Shown piece after piece: positions 1,899 to 14,615 of a stretch of 20,827 bases of DNA. The DNA comes from a virus, in IMG/VR virus record IMGVR_UViG_3300001533_000729, positions 1 through 20,827 of that record; one strand, written 5' to 3'. Below the pieces are notes generated by a model that made no database searches, was not told the DNA's origin, and was given only the letters and a program-made list of their open reading frames with translations. A program made the translations under genes and the position numbers. Position 1 is the first letter of the stretch. Each line of letters begins with the position of its first letter.

Positions 1899-1929
1899 CA
1901 CAAGCGTCCCCATTCCTTTCAAACCATAA
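1849..1929 (+). CDS. Possible 26-codon micro-ORF
   Basis: A GTG at 1849 lies five bases after GGGAGG (1838-1843) and opens a 26-codon frame ending at TAA 1927-1929. The predicted peptide is basic, with a Ser/Thr-rich first half and the ending SVPIPFKP. It lies between the HNH gene and the terminator and fills otherwise empty sequence. Support is only the good ribosome binding site and position; I recognise no family. It could instead be the remnant of a longer gene, or the ribosome binding site may belong to a leader RNA structure described separately. Confidence 0.3.
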   Translation: MRSNTIRQKSTVASRCGTSVPIPFKP

Positions 1930-1960
1930 TACCCTGCTTTTCGTATGATGTGATTCTCTT

Positions 1961-1997
1961 AGGCCTAGGATGGGACGCCCTAGGCCTCTTTTTTATT
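1961..1997 (+). terminator. Rho-independent terminator
   Basis: A nine-base-pair perfect stem, AGGCCTAGG (1961-1969) with CCTAGGCCT (1979-1987), closes a nine-base loop and is followed by CTTTTTTATT. This is a strong terminator for + strand transcription and closes the dut-HNH operon. On the - strand the same stem has no following T-run, so it should be weak for the convergent gene ending at 1993. Confidence 0.9.
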
Positions 1998-2331
1998 CTA
2001 TAAAAGAACAACCAACAACTTCAACGTCTTGATAATATTCCTGCAAGTCTTCAGCCCGTTGTCTTGCAGCATCGTATGTGGTATAATACTCTCCGTTTCC
2101 TCCATGGCGCACCTCAAAGAACTCAATCTCTGGGGTGCACTTTTCATTTATGGGAACAAGAAACTTTTCCTTCAACTCTTCATACGAACCCGTAAGTTGA
2201 ATTGCGTTTTTCATGCAAACAACGCACTCGGAGCAAGATGTTGCCTTCCCCTCTGATAGTAAAACTTTAATGAGTGAATTTGAAAGATTGTCAAGTATGT
2301 CTTGGCGTAAAATTGGTAAATATTTTGGCAT
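1993..2331 (-). CDS. Reversed hypothetical gene with Cys cluster (moron-like)
   Basis: This is a 112-residue protein read opposite to every other gene in the window. Its ATG (2329-2331) is preceded on the - strand by AAGAGGA about four bases upstream, and further upstream by a near-consensus promoter. The N-terminal third is helical (ILRQDILDNLSNSLIKVLL). It is followed by a C33-x2-C36-x2-C39 cluster (SCSECVVCMKN) that could hold a metal, with further cysteines at 66 and 108. The C-terminal part (EYYTTYDAARQRAEDLQEYY then DVEVVGC) looks like a short helix-strand unit. I recognise no family. Its own promoter, opposite strand and position beside a terminator fit a moron: cargo expressed independently, perhaps in a lysogen. 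A + strand ORF at 2029-2256 is its shadow. Confidence 0.7.
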   Translation of the reverse strand: MPKYLPILRQDILDNLSNSLIKVLLSEGKATSCSECVVCMKNAIQLTGSYEELKEKFLVPINEKCTPEIEFFEVRHGGNGEYYTTYDAARQRAEDLQEYYQDVEVVGCSFIE

Positions 2332-2380
2332 TTTTCCTCTTTTCTATACCAAATGGTACGGATAATATGGCTACCATACT

Positions 2381-2409
2381 ATTATATTCTCTACAACGTG
2401 TTATATCAA
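2381..2409 (-). promoter_or_regulatory. Sigma70-type promoter for the reversed gene
   Basis: Read on the - strand, TTGATA (2404-2409) and TATAAT (2381-2386) are separated by exactly 17 bases, that is 11 of 12 consensus positions at optimal spacing. It lies about 50 bases upstream of the reversed gene's start. The -35 box ends five bases before the portal ATG at 2414, so polymerase bound here would cover the portal start region. Confidence 0.85.
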
Positions 2410-2413
2410 TAGC

Positions 2414-3982
2414 ATGTTATACAATTTAAAGGATAAATTATGGCCCGATAGTTACGAATACGAGCAGTACAAACAAGAAGAAGCATACACATGGTATCAA
2501 GGCGACCCAAGCGCCCTACAAAGACTTTATCTACTTTCAGAGCATAGGCTATACCAAGATGCTACCTTTTGGGGCACCAAGCACGACAACGGTGACACAC
2601 CAAGGGTTCACGTAGACATAGCAGGAGACATAGCACAAACGTCTGCGGCTCTTTTATTTTCTGAGCCACCGGCCATTGCAGTAGACCAAGAAGACATTAG
2701 CACGCATGGCTCATACAAGGAGATTATCGACATAACAGATCTGCACTGTGTGTTGGAAGAGGCGGCAGAGATATGTGCAGCCTCCGGTGGCGTCTATATC
2801 AAGCTTAATGGCACAGAGGACTCTCTATATCTAGAGGCAGTTCCTCCACATAGTGTATTCCCAATTTATGAAGGAAAGGTATTAACCGAGGTATATTTTT
2901 ATACTCGGATCGGAACCGATATAAATAACCAAAGTGAACAACCTACTGCATATTCTGTGTTCTTACGAGAACATCGCTATATAAGCGAAGAGGGACTCGT
3001 TATAGAGTCTGACTTTGTTCGTGCAAGCGGGAATGCTATTGTTGGATACGACTCTATATCTGATCATCCTGGTTATTCGTACATTATTCCACACGTGGTT
3101 GTGCAAAGATATGAACACCTGGGTGTGGTCTATGTGCCAAACCTCAAGCCAAATGCTGTAAATCCGGCATCTCCACAGGGTCGACCAGATTATATCAAGT
3201 GTTATACCATGTTTGACTTTCTTGATGAAACCGCAACAAACTGGAGGAGAGATATTCGACTTGGAAAGTCCACAAACTTCATTTCTTCTAGTCTATTAGA
3301 AATAACAAAATCAACAGATAGCCCACAAGAAACGTTACACAAATATCGCCACAATACAGAGAACTTTGTTGCCATTAACATGGAACAAGATATGATGTTT
3401 CTAAGCGGAGGGAAGGGTTGGCAACCCATGACACACATACAGGCTGACATTCGATCCAAAGAGTTTATTGATACATATCTTGAAGTTGCGAAAGATCTTG
3501 TACGTAAAGCAGGATATTCTCCTCAAACCTTTGGATTTGAAACAAGCAACTATGTGCAAACCGGAGTTTCGGTAACAAAAATGGAGCGCAGGACGTTCCA
3601 AACCAAACAGAAGAAACAGCGTTACTGGGCATCTGGTATTAAAAACCTTTTGGAAGCAATTCGACTTTATGGACAGGCTATCGGTATATCCATCCCAGAT
3701 AGTCCCATAACGGTTGACTTCGCAGACGGGGCTTCTTCTTCTGATATTCAGCTCACCTCTGATGCTGTTCGTAACTTTAGACAGGTACGAGCAATGTCAA
3801 CTTACGCTGCCATCAAGTTACAACATCCATCATGGACAGATGCTGAAATTCAAGAAGAGGTAAAGCTCATCAAAAAAGAGCTGGAAGGCTCGAATGATCT
3901 CGCTGGTCGGGACATGAACTTTAATCAACAAACACCAGAACAGGACGATGGTGCAGAAGAGGAGGCACAGGATGCCGAATGA
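2414..3982 (+). CDS. Portal protein (SPP1 gp6-like family)
   Basis: This is a 522-residue protein of normal length for portals of siphophages. It forms the dodecameric ring at the capsid vertex through which DNA is packaged and ejected. Support includes the N-terminal helical region, the segment DIAQTSAALLFSEPPAI near residues 72-88 (the A-x-L-LFSEPP motif is common in this family), the wing region with EAAEICAASGGVYIK, and the clip/stem region containing KAGYSPQTFGFE, a Thr/Val stretch and MERRTFQTKQKKQRYW. The C-terminus is a long acidic tail (PEQDDGAEEEAQDAE) that overlaps the scaffold start by 11 bases. The ATG at 2414 has no good ribosome binding site, and the frame is closed by TAA at 2363-2365, leaving no better in-frame start. 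It follows the reversed gene; no terminase is seen directly upstream. Confidence 0.9.
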   Translation: MLYNLKDKLWPDSYEYEQYKQEEAYTWYQGDPSALQRLYLLSEHRLYQDATFWGTKHDNGDTPRVHVDIAGDIAQTSAALLFSEPPAIAVDQEDISTHGSYKEIIDITDLHCVLEEAAEICAASGGVYIKLNGTEDSLYLEAVPPHSVFPIYEGKVLTEVYFYTRIGTDINNQSEQPTAYSVFLREHRYISEEGLVIESDFVRASGNAIVGYDSISDHPGYSYIIPHVVVQRYEHLGVVYVPNLKPNAVNPASPQGRPDYIKCYTMFDFLDETATNWRRDIRLGKSTNFISSSLLEITKSTDSPQETLHKYRHNTENFVAINMEQDMMFLSGGKGWQPMTHIQADIRSKEFIDTYLEVAKDLVRKAGYSPQTFGFETSNYVQTGVSVTKMERRTFQTKQKKQRYWASGIKNLLEAIRLYGQAIGISIPDSPITVDFADGASSSDIQLTSDAVRNFRQVRAMSTYAAIKLQHPSWTDAEIQEEVKLIKKELEGSNDLAGRDMNFNQQTPEQDDGAEEEAQDAE

Positions 3983-4499
3983 AGAAAAAGACGTAGCATT
4001 ACAAGAAGAGCAAGAGACCGGAGAAACAGCAACCGAAGAAGAAACTGAAGAGCAAAATGCTTCAGAGAAAAAAGACAACGACTCGGAAGCTATTATCTCA
4101 AAACTCCGTAAAGAGAACGCCAGACGGAGGATTGAGGCAAAGGAGCTTAAGTCTCAATTAGAAGGCCTACAGGGAAAAACGAAAGAAACGCCCGATGTGA
4201 GGCAATCTGATGACCGCATTGAAATGTTACAGCGAAAGATCAACGCTCTGCAAATCAACAGCCTAGCAGAGAAAAAAGGCGTAGACTCTGAGGTTTTAGA
4301 GGCCCTAATCTCCAAACGAGGGATTGACCTTGCAGACCCAGATGCCGCCGAGCTTGTTGATGATCTCATCAAGGAAAAGGGGCTTGTCAAAAAACGACAA
4401 TCCTTTGGCAATTCTGTGCAAGGAACAGAACCACCAGGACAAAAGCCAAAGACCATTGATGAGTACCTCAAGATACAAGCTGAACGACTAATGAACTAG
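3972..4499 (+). CDS. Capsid scaffolding protein
   Basis: This 175-residue protein begins at ATG 3972, chosen because GAGGAGG (3958-3964) sits seven bases upstream; an in-frame ATG at 3948 lies inside that binding site's own upstream region and is unlikely. The first 35 residues are very acidic. Residues about 38-100 are a coiled coil with ISKLRKENARRRIEAKEL, a pattern usual in phage scaffolds. The C-terminus (PKTIDEYLKIQAERLMN) is amphipathic and is where scaffolds commonly bind the capsid protein. It guides procapsid assembly and is then lost. Its place between portal and capsid genes supports the call. No separate protease gene accompanies it, so it probably exits intact rather than being digested. 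Confidence 0.85.
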   Translation: MPNEEKDVALQEEQETGETATEEETEEQNASEKKDNDSEAIISKLRKENARRRIEAKELKSQLEGLQGKTKETPDVRQSDDRIEMLQRKINALQINSLAEKKGVDSEVLEALISKRGIDLADPDAAELVDDLIKEKGLVKKRQSFGNSVQGTEPPGQKPKTIDEYLKIQAERLMN

Positions 4500-4512
4500 A
4501 AAGGAGTATTAC

Positions 4513-5469
4513 ATGTCGAGAGTTACTCGTGCAGATGTATTGGCTTTACAAGATGATATACTTTTAAAGCCGATTTTTAAAGAATTAGAATCTAGTACCA
4601 TTGCGCTTCCACTTATGAGGCGGGTACAAGATATTCCGTTGTACAAATCAAAAATTGCCGTTCAAGATACACTGGCTACGGCAACCTGGATTGATCCACC
4701 TGAGCAGTCAACAACTGAAGACAATGAACCTGGGTACAAAACGCAAACCAAAATTTCTTGGGAAAACAAGTACTTGGAGATTGCAGAAATTGCCGCTGTG
4801 TGTGTAATTAACGATTACACCTCTACCGACATTTCTCAGCTCTGGTCTTTAAACCAAGAGGCCATTATGAACGCTATCCGTGCAGAAATAGACAAGGCCA
4901 CCTTAGTTGGAGATAAACCCAGTACCACTTGGCCAGACCCTGTTATCACAACTGCCGCCGCAAAGAGTGCTTATGGTTTTAAAGTAATCCGTGGTACGAA
5001 TGCTGACTTTTTAGAAGATATTTCCTCCGCTATGGGAGCAATCGAAGACTGTGGCTATATGCCATCAGACGCCATTGTTCTCCCTGCTATGAGACAACAT
5101 CTTCGTGATCTTCGAGACTCTAACGGTCAACCACTTGTTATTGGTGCCACCGGTAACGGAACTCCACAGGTGTATGGTATGAATCTTCATTACTGTAGAA
5201 ATGGTTCATTCTCTGCCGCTGACGCAGAAATGATTATCGGAGACTTTTCCCAAGCTATTTATGCATTCCGTAACAAGATGACCGTTCGTATGTTTGATAC
5301 CGGTACCGTCGAAGATTCAGTTGGGACAACAAAGACCAACCTCTTAATGCAAGATGCTATGGCATTGCGTGTTACGTTTGAAATGGCTTGGCAGATTCCA
5401 AATCCTATCAACCGAGTTCAAGAAACCGCAGCAGAGCGTTATCCCTTCTCAATTATCACCGCATCGTAA
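4513..5469 (+). CDS. Major capsid protein, HK97 fold
   Basis: The 318-residue protein forms the icosahedral shell. The N-terminal arm is short (TRADVLALQDDILLKPIFKE), followed by an E-loop-like region with ATWIDPPEQSTTEDNEPGYK and SWENKYLEIAEIAAVCVIND. The spine-helix-like region is near NQEAIMNAIRAEIDKATLVG. The P/A-domain region contains NADFLEDISSAMGAIEDCGYMPSDAIVLPAMRQHLRDLRD, GNGTPQVYGMNLHYC and IGDFSQAIYAFRNKMTVRMFD, which is the classic HK97-family sequence arrangement. AAAGGAG lies before the ATG. The gene ends with two tandem stops, TAA TAG. Absence of a long N-terminal delta domain agrees with a separate scaffold gene upstream. Confidence 0.93.
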   Translation: MSRVTRADVLALQDDILLKPIFKELESSTIALPLMRRVQDIPLYKSKIAVQDTLATATWIDPPEQSTTEDNEPGYKTQTKISWENKYLEIAEIAAVCVINDYTSTDISQLWSLNQEAIMNAIRAEIDKATLVGDKPSTTWPDPVITTAAAKSAYGFKVIRGTNADFLEDISSAMGAIEDCGYMPSDAIVLPAMRQHLRDLRDSNGQPLVIGATGNGTPQVYGMNLHYCRNGSFSAADAEMIIGDFSQAIYAFRNKMTVRMFDTGTVEDSVGTTKTNLLMQDAMALRVTFEMAWQIPNPINRVQETAAERYPFSIITAS

Positions 5470-9643: not shown

Positions 9644-9834
9644 TATATGGCTGGGGATATTTGGAGGCAGACTTTATGAGATTTTATAAGTTAGACATGG
9701 GCATTCTTGTACGAGAAAATACAATGTCATTACGCATGTTTCAAAACCTCATCAAGGGTCTTCCTGCAGAATCCGCATACGCTCGATTCATTGGCAATCG
9801 AGAGAATTACCAGGATGGTTTAATTAACAAATGA
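9601..9834 (+). CDS. Tail assembly chaperone extension (-1 frame, gpGT-like)
   Basis: This frame is -1 relative to the short chaperone and overlaps its end. If ribosomes slip at 9596-9602, the product is a fusion of 134 residues from frame 0 plus 77 from this frame, about 211 in all. It plays the gpGT role, where the T-part recruits the tail tube protein. The segment GLWLLIYGWGYLEADFMRFYKLDM is typical of T-like parts: aromatic residues then LE-x-DF..-F/Y-x-x-D. Coding character before the first ATG supports the fusion. An ATG at 9676 has GGAGG (9663-9667) eight bases upstream, so an independent 52-residue product is possible too. The stop overlaps the tape measure start (ATGA). Confidence 0.7.
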   Translation, partial: RRIRIGGAEGLWLLIYGWGYLEADFMRFYKLDMGILVRENTMSLRMFQNLIKGLPAESAYARFIGNRENYQDGLINK

Positions 9835-12800
9835 TAGATGTACAAGTAGGAGCCGTATCTGCTGAGATAAAAGCTAATATAAAGCCGCTTTTAACATCAA
9901 TTGACCAAATTGAGCAAAAGTGTGTTGCTTCTGTTAAGCGCATTGAATCTGAATACGGCTCGGTATTTAAAAAGGTTGAGTCAATTATCCAGCAATCAGA
10001 AAGCAGGGTAGAATCAACAACCAAGGCACACGTATCCCGTATGAATACATACGTGGAAGGGTTTGCTACTAAATATCGTGCAGCTATGCAGACTATGGGC
10101 ACTACGGCAAAGTCTAGTGCAGATAAAGCATCCAAAGAATTTCAAGAAGTTGCCAGAGACCTAAACGCAACAGCTACGGCTGCAAAAAAAGCAAAAGCAG
10201 CAGTAAAAGAAGTTGGAACAGCAGCTGGAGGATCATCTCGTAGTAGCGGTGTACGAGTTGGAACAGAGGGCGTTAAGCCAGATACTGCTCCGTTATATAA
10301 AGAGATGTGGACACTCCCATATCGAATGGAGCATATTGGTCGAGCCATGTATTTCTCCATGTCAAGACCAATCCAATATGCACTAGGTGAATTGAAGTCT
10401 GTTGTAGTTGAATTTGAAGACTCCTTACTTTCCGTACAGGCCATTTTAGGCAAAACGGGGAAAGAGTTTAAGAAGTTTGAGCAACTAGCGGTAAATATTG
10501 CCAAAAACAGCTACGGGAAAATAGCTGAAGCAGCAGGCGTTATGGAGGTGTTGGCCAAGGCTGGTATGGACGATTCCTCCATTCTAACAATGACCGAATC
10601 TCTTGTCAACCTTAGTATTGCCATGGACATGAATGCAAACCAAGCCAGCTCTATGTCAATACAGATTGCAAATGCATTTAACGCTCCTGCGTCTGCGATT
10701 GAACAATACACCAACATTATGGCTAAGGGCGTAAACTCTGCAAACATGCAGCTCGACGATCTCTTATCGGGGATGTCATACGTGGCTCCCGTTGCCTCAT
10801 TGGCAGGGACAAGCATTGAGGAATTAACTGCAATTTTTGGTGTTTTAGCAAACTCTGGCATTAAAGGGTCAAAGGCTGGAACCACGCTGCGGAATATGTT
10901 CACACGGCTACTAAACCCAACCTCTAGTATGAAAAGGGTACTGGATGAATATGATATTAGTTTAAGAAATTCATCTGGTAGCATGAAGTCGCTGGTCGAG
11001 ATAATTCGAGAATTTGAGGTAAAGGGGGTAAGTTTACAAAGCATAATGGGCTCATTTGCACAACGTGCAGGCCCTGGCATGTCTAAGTTAATAGGAGAAG
11101 GGGCAGACTCCATTGAAGCTCTCAAGGAAACAGTTGGGGACGCAGGTGGATATATCGATGAGCTAGTTAATGTCAAAATGTCTGGGCTAACAGGTAGTAT
11201 GCGTAAAATTGCGGGGGCAAAAGAGCGCATTGGCAAGGCCTTGTTTGAAAAGGTCTTTGAAGAACAATTAGCAAGCGTTGCCAAGTTATTAGAAAAAGTT
11301 GCAAACGGTATCGAGAACATGGACGAGAGAGTCGTAAAGGCAATCGGATATACCGTTGAACTTGGGGCTGCCCTCGGTGGACTTGCTATGGCAGCGGGCA
11401 TTTCGGCTCGTGCTTTTAAATTACTAAAATCTCTTGTCGCAACAGCGACAACCTTCTTCTCGGCGACGGCGGGGGGTGCAACTGCAGCAACGGCCGCTAC
11501 AACAAAAACAACAGCCTCTACCGTAGCGCTTGGCGCAAAAATGTCCAAGACAATTAGTATTATGTCGAAGCTTAGCTCATCCGCAAAAGGGCTTGCTCTG
11601 GCATTTTCTGGTACTGTTGGAGCATTTGCAGCTGGTGCTACCACACTAGCCGGATTCATCGCATTTCTTTATCGATACGACACGGTATCTAAGGAGAGAA
11701 TGGATAACATTGCCGCATCTGCTAAAGACATGAGCCAGAAAATGAGTGACGGCTTTGCTGGTTTTGCCAAAAACGCAACCACATCCACAAAAGAGTGGTG
11801 GCAGGCATTTGGGGTTATTACCAAGAGGGCACTAGCCGATGCAGACGAAAACATTCAGGACTGGTGGAATGAAAGAAGAGGGGGCATTGACAAGCAAAAG
11901 GATTACGAAAGTAAAATGCTTGACGAAACAGAAGCCCAGCTTACCGAGTACTACGAAGCGGCCAAAAAAATTGCATCCGATGCCATAGACAATATAAAGG
12001 AAAAATACCCAGAGCTAACGACTAAATCTGCCGAAGCGTGGAGTATAATGTCTGGGCATGTCTCACAATTCGCAAGCGATGCGTGGGCGTCTATATCTGA
12101 CTTGTGGGTAAAAACAAGCGCCTTTTTTGATTCTTTGTGGGCAAAAATTTCCCTCACCAACACAAGACAGCTTCTGCAAGACGCAAAGGCCGGTGCAGAT
12201 ATTTTTAATAAACTACGAGAACGGAATGAGGGGACAGACGTTCCACTTTATGCGCTGAAGAGACCAAGCGGCTCTTTGTTCGATACAATGAAGGGCAACA
12301 TGGGCTATCCTGTTCCGAAAGGCATAGAGGCATTTGATAAGTATGCCGAAGAAACTAAAAGACTAATTGATGATACTTTCCCATACCTGGGGATGACCGA
12401 GTTAGAAAAAGACTTAGAAAAACTAGACGAGGCTTACGCTGAACACTATGCGCAAATTAAACAATATGCAGGTATGGATCAAGAATTTAGACTAAAACAA
12501 CTAGATGAGTGGAAGCAAGAAGAGCTTGCCGCCATCTATGAACGTGGACAGGCAGTAGGCAGTGGCAACGCTGGTGTTGAGAAGTCAATCTCTAGAATGT
12601 ATGATGAAATTTACGAGATGACCCATACAGACACCGAGGTTAAGCGACGGGAAATAGGAAAACAAGCTGCTGACTACTATGCAGCTACAAAAGATATAAT
12701 TGGCGTAGAAACGTGGAAGTTCCACAAGATAAAAGAGCTCAACGAAGAAAACGCCAAAAAGATGATGGAGTCAACAGCAAAAGCTGTTACGCAAACCATA

Positions 12801-14615
12801 GACTTCTTTATTGAGGCATCTAAAAATAGAATTGACACCTATTATGGCAACCTCATTAAATATATAGAGGAAATGCAAGAACAAAGTGAAGAATGGTACG
12901 ATAGCGCAACAAAGGCAGAAGAAGAGCTTCATGAAAAAACCATGGACAACATTCAAGAGCATTATAATGGTATTATTGATCAAATTGATGCTGCTCGTGA
13001 ATTTCGTCAAGAACAAGAGGAAATGGAAAATGCATGGCAGTCTATTCGTGATGCAGCAGAAGACGTTAGTGACCTAATCAATCAAAAAAATCAAAACCAA
13101 TATAACGTTGCAATGGAAAAAGCCAAAGAGCTTTTCCTTTACAACGAGGCGGTTAAAGAATCTCTCAATAAACAAAACGAGCAAATACTTGAGCTGAATG
13201 CATCTGGCCAAAAAGAGCTTGACGCCCTAGACAAGAAGAGAAGATTGGCAGAAGAGAATTATCAAATTGCCAAAAAAGAATATGAGCTAAAGAAAACAGA
13301 AGAGTCCCTTAGAGAAGACAAGTCACTTTCAGACGTTATGGGTGTTGAAGGTAGCGGGCAACAAGTAAAAGCCATGCTCAATGAGTTTATGTCCATCCGA
13401 CATCCTAATCTACAATACGACAGAGACGATCCTATGAGCGAGGGACGCATTTATGGGGTATTACAAGAGTTTACTCAAAGATATCATCTTCCTCAAACTG
13501 GTGGCTCTCTAAGTTCTTTGTATGAGTACTTTACTGGCAAGCAAGAAGAGAAGAGGGGGGAAACTCCTGAGGAAGAACTGCAAAAAGAGATGGAAGAAAT
13601 TGCACAAGAGGAGAAAGATGCCCTTCAAACATTTGAGGAGAAAAAACAAGAGATTCTCTCAGAAACACAAGAGACTCTTACCTCATTAAAAGATGACATT
13701 AACAAGCGTCTTCAAGACGCCGATACCAATGCTGCAATTCGAGATGCAGACATTAGCAATGAGATAGCAACTGCAAATACAGAATTAGATGAAGCAAACG
13801 AACAGCTAAAGAAGATAATACTAGAAAAAACAATCGATGACCACCTCACATTTGTTCGGGGACAGCTCGCCACCGCAGAAGAACAAGAAAAAGCAAGAAA
13901 CCAATTGCGCCAACAAGCTCTTGATGATATGAACAAAAACACCAAGCAGATTGCAGATAACACACTTATGGCGCTAGGTGCTGGCAAAGAAGTAGACGAG
14001 CGTGCAATCGAAGACAATGCAATCAACGCATTCTTACAACTTGATCCTTCCGAGGTAGAGGACTTTTTAGACCAATGGCTTCCAACGTGGAAGACCTATG
14101 GACAAACAGCTGGAGAACAGCTTATCCAGGGTATGACGAATGCAATAGACGATGACGGTGCGTTAATGACGGCTATTGACAATCTGACCAATCGCATTAT
14201 CAACAAAATCAAAGAAAACTTTGATATTCACTCGCCTTCTAAGAAAACAGAAGAGATTACAAAGAACCTACTTGCTGGTCACACGAAACCGCTTCGAGTT
14301 GGCAGTGCCGATGCTGAAAGAACAATAGACCAGTTTGCCCTCTATGCAAACAGGATGTCTGACGCTATAGCAAACAATATAGATAATAGCCCTACACAAA
14401 AAAGCATTACAGAGCTATTTAACAGTGCACCGTTAACGGCGAATAGAATGATGGGCGGGTTGGTTCAGCAACCCAGCGTTAAGGAAACGACTGCTCAATC
14501 AATCTATAACCAACAGCGAGATATGCAGTATAAAATTTATGTCAATACATCGGACAACATGGCCGTCAATGATATAGAGCGCATGATGCGCAAGACAAGG
14601 TTGAGTGCAATATGA
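9831..14615 (+). CDS. Tail tape measure protein
   Basis: At 1594 residues this is the longest gene. It sets tail length, fills the tube and helps DNA cross the host envelope. The start is ATG 9831 in an ATGA overlap. Residues about 160-480 carry the TP901-type tape measure core (HIGRAMYFSMSRPIQY, EDSLLSVQAILGKTGKEF, EVLAKAGM, ANAFN, ELTAIFGVLANSGIKGSKAG). Hydrophobic segments near 501-545 and 588-617 could insert in the host membrane. Long coiled coils fill about 980-1165 and 1247-1385. Near 1463 the motif FDIHSPSKKTEEI, usual at the end of tape measures, appears. At about 0.15 nm per residue, the tail is about 240 nm. I see no peptidase or lysozyme motif. A 382-codon antisense ORF at 10511-11659 is its shadow. 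Confidence 0.95.
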   Translation: MIDVQVGAVSAEIKANIKPLLTSIDQIEQKCVASVKRIESEYGSVFKKVESIIQQSESRVESTTKAHVSRMNTYVEGFATKYRAAMQTMGTTAKSSADKASKEFQEVARDLNATATAAKKAKAAVKEVGTAAGGSSRSSGVRVGTEGVKPDTAPLYKEMWTLPYRMEHIGRAMYFSMSRPIQYALGELKSVVVEFEDSLLSVQAILGKTGKEFKKFEQLAVNIAKNSYGKIAEAAGVMEVLAKAGMDDSSILTMTESLVNLSIAMDMNANQASSMSIQIANAFNAPASAIEQYTNIMAKGVNSANMQLDDLLSGMSYVAPVASLAGTSIEELTAIFGVLANSGIKGSKAGTTLRNMFTRLLNPTSSMKRVLDEYDISLRNSSGSMKSLVEIIREFEVKGVSLQSIMGSFAQRAGPGMSKLIGEGADSIEALKETVGDAGGYIDELVNVKMSGLTGSMRKIAGAKERIGKALFEKVFEEQLASVAKLLEKVANGIENMDERVVKAIGYTVELGAALGGLAMAAGISARAFKLLKSLVATATTFFSATAGGATAATAATTKTTASTVALGAKMSKTISIMSKLSSSAKGLALAFSGTVGAFAAGATTLAGFIAFLYRYDTVSKERMDNIAASAKDMSQKMSDGFAGFAKNATTSTKEWWQAFGVITKRALADADENIQDWWNERRGGIDKQKDYESKMLDETEAQLTEYYEAAKKIASDAIDNIKEKYPELTTKSAEAWSIMSGHVSQFASDAWASISDLWVKTSAFFDSLWAKISLTNTRQLLQDAKAGADIFNKLRERNEGTDVPLYALKRPSGSLFDTMKGNMGYPVPKGIEAFDKYAEETKRLIDDTFPYLGMTELEKDLEKLDEAYAEHYAQIKQYAGMDQEFRLKQLDEWKQEELAAIYERGQAVGSGNAGVEKSISRMYDEIYEMTHTDTEVKRREIGKQAADYYAATKDIIGVETWKFHKIKELNEENAKKMMESTAKAVTQTIDFFIEASKNRIDTYYGNLIKYIEEMQEQSEEWYDSATKAEEELHEKTMDNIQEHYNGIIDQIDAAREFRQEQEEMENAWQSIRDAAEDVSDLINQKNQNQYNVAMEKAKELFLYNEAVKESLNKQNEQILELNASGQKELDALDKKRRLAEENYQIAKKEYELKKTEESLREDKSLSDVMGVEGSGQQVKAMLNEFMSIRHPNLQYDRDDPMSEGRIYGVLQEFTQRYHLPQTGGSLSSLYEYFTGKQEEKRGETPEEELQKEMEEIAQEEKDALQTFEEKKQEILSETQETLTSLKDDINKRLQDADTNAAIRDADISNEIATANTELDEANEQLKKIILEKTIDDHLTFVRGQLATAEEQEKARNQLRQQALDDMNKNTKQIADNTLMALGAGKEVDERAIEDNAINAFLQLDPSEVEDFLDQWLPTWKTYGQTAGEQLIQGMTNAIDDDGALMTAIDNLTNRIINKIKENFDIHSPSKKTEEITKNLLAGHTKPLRVGSADAERTIDQFALYANRMSDAIANNIDNSPTQKSITELFNSAPLTANRMMGGLVQQPSVKETTAQSIYNQQRDMQYKIYVNTSDNMAVNDIERMMRKTRLSAI

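Follow-up and report, generated by a model that had tools for sequence, protein, structure and literature searches.

A lineage-conserved reversed gene for an unclassified small protein next to the portal gene of a phage genome fragment

Introduction

The DNA analysed here, referred to below as the window, is a virus record of 20,827 bases (IMGVR_UViG_3300001533_000729), a 20.8-kb fragment of a phage genome. Its 24 main open reading frames all lie on the plus strand, as the original prediction had stated for every gene but one. The exception is a 112-codon gene on the minus strand (1993-2331), located in the gap between a replication and nucleotide-metabolism operon and the head operon, and the question raised by the locus is what a gene read against all of its neighbors does at this junction. 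The original prediction regarded it as a moron by layout, a self-contained gene inserted between two operons. Morons are exemplified by the superinfection exclusion gene gp15 of phage HK97 (PMC9936078), and the term is defined in the glossary of PMC7380047.

On the favored reading the feature is of an ordinary kind, a moron-like accessory gene, and its unclassified protein is conserved within the phage lineage. We give an even chance to the reading that it is a lineage-conserved, moron-like, host-directed accessory gene which is read apart from the late operon. Here we present the properties of the gene, its signals and its product, together with a comparison to other portal loci and the functions that may be considered.

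Gene order and coding properties

On the left of the reversed gene the plus strand encodes a phrog_6802 protein, a dUTPase (phrog_135) and a NinG/Rap-like endonuclease (1403-1834; phrog_5034, 1.1e-8), the last clear gene of the left operon. On the right, the portal gene (2414-3982, plus strand; PF05133, 1.9e-15; phrog_533, 6.7e-69) opens the head operon and is followed on the same strand by the capsid gene (4513) and the tail genes, with the tape measure gene at 9831-14615. A scan of viral contigs based on the portal delivered one close relative, IMGVR_UViG_3300001533_002206 (hereafter L007), which also has a homologue of the NinG-like gene; scans of genome contigs with the portal and tape measure proteins as queries gave no match.

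Two further features of this region were noted. A 26-codon frame with a GTG start (VRSNTIRQKSTVASRCGTSVPIPFKP) lies at 1849-1929 on the plus strand, past the NinG-like gene and ahead of the terminator described below; it has a strong ribosome site (-13.2 kcal/mol), and a search found no relative of it. The start of the portal gene lacks a Shine-Dalgarno sequence in the window (2394-2413, -2.0 kcal/mol) and in L007 (4396-4415, 0 kcal/mol), whereas this signal is strong at most other genes; the late transcript of the portal gene may be leaderless or begin very close to the ATG.

The minus-strand gene, which starts with ATG and encodes 112 amino acids, is real, as its codon use resembles that of its neighbors and L007 carries a homologue of equal length; the prediction of a gene of this size is thereby borne out. 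Its codon score is 0.22; the 24 other genes, each omitted from the training set when scored, range from -0.06 to 0.34. The remaining five frames of the segment score between -0.25 and -0.02, and none of 2,000 off-frame segments attained 0.22. The GC content at third codon positions is 0.35, a value inside the 0.30-0.60 span of the backbone genes, most of which have 0.35-0.45, and the base composition does not differ from that of the flanking backbone.

Conservation in a related phage

Between L007 and the window, sequence identity amounts to 45% for the portal, 51% for the capsid, 38% for the NinG-like protein and 68% for the N-terminal part of the tape measure protein. The homologue of the reversed gene (4014-4352, minus strand) encodes 112 amino acids with 37% identity (E 2e-15). 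It starts 63 bases 5' of the portal gene and ends beside a plus-strand terminator (3977-4012), so that length, place and orientation, with a terminator on one side and the portal on the other, are shared by both phages, as is the CxxCxxC motif. The alignment of these two sequences has forty invariant columns, among them Cys33, Cys36, Cys39, His76 and a C-terminal IEFFE...EYY...A..RA..LQ block. Differences at the first, second and third codon positions number 52, 40 and 72, a pattern that fits selection on this reading frame. Unlike the window protein, the L007 homologue has a fourth and a fifth cysteine (26 and 28) N-terminal to the motif, and its ribosome site is the stronger of the two.

Judged from these sequences, the gene is part of this phage lineage rather than a one-off insert, because the relative has it in the same position. 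The view of a unique, recently inserted and strain-specific moron was accordingly given up, in accordance also with the third-position GC content. The original prediction had named carriage by close relatives within a conserved head operon as the arrangement that would speak against it; L007 does carry the gene, yet outside the head operon. L007 was the sole close relative found, and more distant portal relatives lack the reversed gene. Viral-contig scans in which the alignment, or its C-terminal half alone, served as query returned L007 only, and a tblastn search of phage and plasmid sequences with the window protein found nothing. The best matches of the L007 homologue (Enygma gp52, MT836753) were rejected as chance (E 2).

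Transcription and translation signals

The reversed gene is preceded by a promoter sequence (2381-2409, minus strand) with TTGATA at -35, a spacer of 17 nt and TATAAT at -10, matching 11 of the 12 sigma-70 positions. A promoter of at least this quality occurred in 14 of 3,000 random 100-mers of similar composition, about 0.5% by chance per 100 nt, and this is one of only two 11/12 sites in the whole window, both strands counted together. As far as sequence evidence goes, the consensus-like promoter proposed for the gene is thus present above chance. Its -35 element ends 5 nt from the ATG of the portal gene. In L007 the corresponding promoter is weak (9/12) and not above chance. The ribosome binding site (AAGAGGAA, 2332-2345, minus strand), likewise predicted, lies directly 5' of the ATG and is moderate, with a duplex energy of -6.3 kcal/mol.

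The terminator next to the end of the gene had been counted as part of the same unit and has to be assigned differently. On the plus strand, CTTTTTT comes after the hairpin AGGCCTAGG/CCTAGGCCT (1961-1987), whereas TAAGAGAATC comes after it on the minus strand; the plus-strand T-run overlaps the stop codon at which the reversed gene ends. As the T-run occurs on the plus strand only, this intrinsic terminator (1961-1997) stops transcripts arriving from the direction of the NinG-like gene and serves the upstream operon, not the reversed gene. Near the end of the gene no terminator that could stop leftward transcription was found, so that a self-contained unit is not supported. The L007 hairpin differs in having a short T-run on both strands. 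A plus-strand terminator separates the left operon from the reversed gene in both phages.

Other signals were considered in the same region. A match to an SdsR-like RNA (1896-1993) scored 28 bits, below the 38-bit cut-off, and was attributed to the terminator hairpin. A plus-strand promoter at 2059-2087 was rejected and seems to be a by-product of Glu-Tyr-Tyr codons. The blocks ACCATAATA and TA(T/C)GATGTGAT occur 5' of the terminator in the window (1923-1955) and in L007 (3911-3945); the statistically weak similarity is possibly that of a promoter and leader RNA, by analogy to lambda pR'-tR'.

Protein features

The protein is acidic (pI 4.6; 4.6-4.9 across both homologues) and is predicted to consist of a helical N-terminal part, the Cys33-x2-Cys36-x2-Cys39 cluster described in the original prediction and a C-terminal beta-beta-alpha-beta unit. 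From their invariance in the two sequences, the three cysteines and perhaps His76 may form a metal site. AlphaFold models based on the two-sequence alignment reached a pLDDT of 60 for the whole protein, at which a Foldseek search is not meaningful, and of 81 for the C-terminal 49 residues, with beta-beta-alpha-beta at about residues 69-110. The product is a small, acidic, soluble protein, its beta-beta-alpha-beta unit probably serving to bind a partner.

Scans of the window protein and its L007 homologue against Pfam, PHROGs, NCBIfam and PADLOC returned nothing, in the case of PADLOC at E values up to 10 and with a library of mainly defence rather than anti-defence models. A sequence search of the PDB gave chance matches only, and Foldseek searches of PDB and BFVD with the C-terminal unit gave nothing at E 0.001. 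The statement that the cluster resembles no nameable family was thus upheld in profile and structure searches, in which no family, solved structure or fold was matched.

The predicted fold of the C-terminal 49 residues is like that of many tiny beta-beta-alpha-beta phage proteins in BFVD (such as A0A6J5KW59, 46 aa, and A0A1S5R1Q3, 51 aa), with TM scores of 0.7-0.8 and probabilities of 0.98-0.99, but E values of 0.4-0.7, so that kinship is not proven. These proteins are uncharacterised and too short to contain the cysteine part. By eye, the helix and following cysteine-rich, CxCxxC-like stretch of the L007 homologue were taken by us to resemble the ComFB family (PF10719). This candidate was rejected, as neither protein matched the family at E values up to 10 while control genomes did; the results of the PDB sequence search held no ComFB entry.

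The portal junction in other phages

Of 73 portal loci examined, 69 have a plus-strand open reading frame of terminase size directly 5' of the portal gene. The observation that the reversed gene occupies a place where a terminase is often found was therefore correct, and such a frame is absent there from the window and from L007. A TerL search detected no terminase before the portal or elsewhere in either record, both of which are fragments of about 20 kb, and the terminase could be in the missing part. The portal and other head genes are present in both records. In this lineage the terminase seems to be located away from the portal.

Among 61 portal loci, a reverse promoter of at least 11/12 within 150 nt of the portal was found in the window and in one more distant phage only, IMGVR_UViG_3300042731_007552 (L100), whose portal protein is 31% identical. 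L100 keeps the terminase about 2 kb upstream of the portal and has two reversed small genes between them, each with a perfect TTGACA-17-TATAAT promoter. These resemble the window gene in junction, orientation, consensus promoters of their own and small products; they differ in being two and in not being homologous to the window protein (hhalign probability 0.1%). A minus-strand match of L100 to our profile (E 0.12) lies in another frame than the likely gene and was rejected. The two genes (1060-1770) share a duplicated control region with near-identical copies, and between them lie many repeats of TTAGTACTAACA, which look like an operator array. In another locus (L015), terminase and portal are separated by additional plus-strand genes spanning about 3 kb (2091-5398). 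By eye these include a RAMP/Cas superfamily-like and a PAPS reductase-like protein, possible defence cargo in a phage. Taken together, the window, L100 and L015 indicate that additional genes, some of them reversed, are accommodated at this junction in more than one lineage.

Possible functions

If the gene is moron-like, its own sigma-70 promoter would be used by the host RNA polymerase for leftward transcription. Such transcription would be independent of the late genes, owing to that promoter and to the gene pointing away from the head operon, and the product could appear in the early phase of infection or in lysogenic cells. The protein would most likely act on a host protein or process, its cysteine-rich helical part perhaps binding a metal and its beta-beta-alpha-beta unit probably a partner. 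The coding statistics and codon differences, the L007 homologue in the same place and strand, the 11/12 promoter, the terminators that set the left operon apart in both phages, and the acceptance of independently transcribed reversed genes at the L100 junction all favor this reading. Like morons such as HK97 gp15, it is a single small gene between modules with its own promoter, presumably transcribed apart from the flanking late genes; it differs in lacking its own terminator, in its unremarkable base composition and in its conservation in a close relative. Morons are typically patchy among relatives. Here the sole close relative has the gene, and its divergence tracks that of the backbone, as would that of a backbone gene. 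The weak L007 promoter and the absence of a functional family or fold match also count against the reading, as does the fact that no integrase was recognised in the 20.8-kb fragment, which leaves a temperate lifestyle unproven. Of the moron proposal, a reversed unit transcribed separately at the boundary of two modules, without a family match, was supported; a self-contained gene and a recent, strain-specific insertion were not.

Unlikely, although the strongest of the alternatives, is a role in regulating the switch to late transcription, with the protein produced early from the promoter facing away from the portal. It would bind the 83-nt divergent region or RNA polymerase, repress itself, and activate or hold back the head operon. 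Its place directly beside the first late gene is conserved in both phages, and in both the head operon is cut off from the left one by the terminator, so that late transcription must begin or be let through near the reversed gene. The closeness of the -35 element to the portal ATG and an imperfect TACCA/TGGTA palindrome (2347-2358), with another TACCA at 2372, are consistent with such control, and the conserved cysteines could form a metal site that contacts DNA or polymerase. However, short palindromes are expected in this region by chance, the divergent regions of the two phages have no significant sequence in common, the protein is acidic, and no helix-turn-helix, sigma or antitermination family was matched. 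The more specific form of this idea, in which a new small cysteine-cluster family is the divergently transcribed, metal-dependent switch controlling the late operon of head and tail genes and the terminase of the lineage has moved away from the portal, is distinctly less probable.

Comparably improbable is an anti-defence or host-takeover protein that is made as lytic infection begins, such as one inhibiting a host defence enzyme, rather than a lysogeny gene. A small, acidic, soluble product, a strong host-type promoter and the lack of a known family are the usual traits of early phage inhibitors, and all are found here; the ninG-like, dUTPase and phrog_6802 genes would suit an early or middle region. 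Against it stands the negative PADLOC result, weakened by the composition of that library. A packaging or head role, such as a small terminase-like subunit, would suit the missing terminase at a site where most portal loci have one, but it is very unlikely for a reversed gene of only 112 aa with its own promoter and no terminase-family match, in records whose missing parts can hold the terminase. That the frame is spurious and the sequence signals alone matter is practically negligible: a 112-codon frame appears in 2.7% of shuffled regions, but the equal-length homologue in the same place and the in-frame codon signal oppose it.

Implications

If the moron-like reading is true, the terminase/portal junction gains an unclassified phage protein family of two members, and this junction, with extra genes in several lineages, would be a useful place to seek host-directed proteins. 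If instead the product is a regulator, it would explain how these phages switch on their late genes once the left operon has been terminated.
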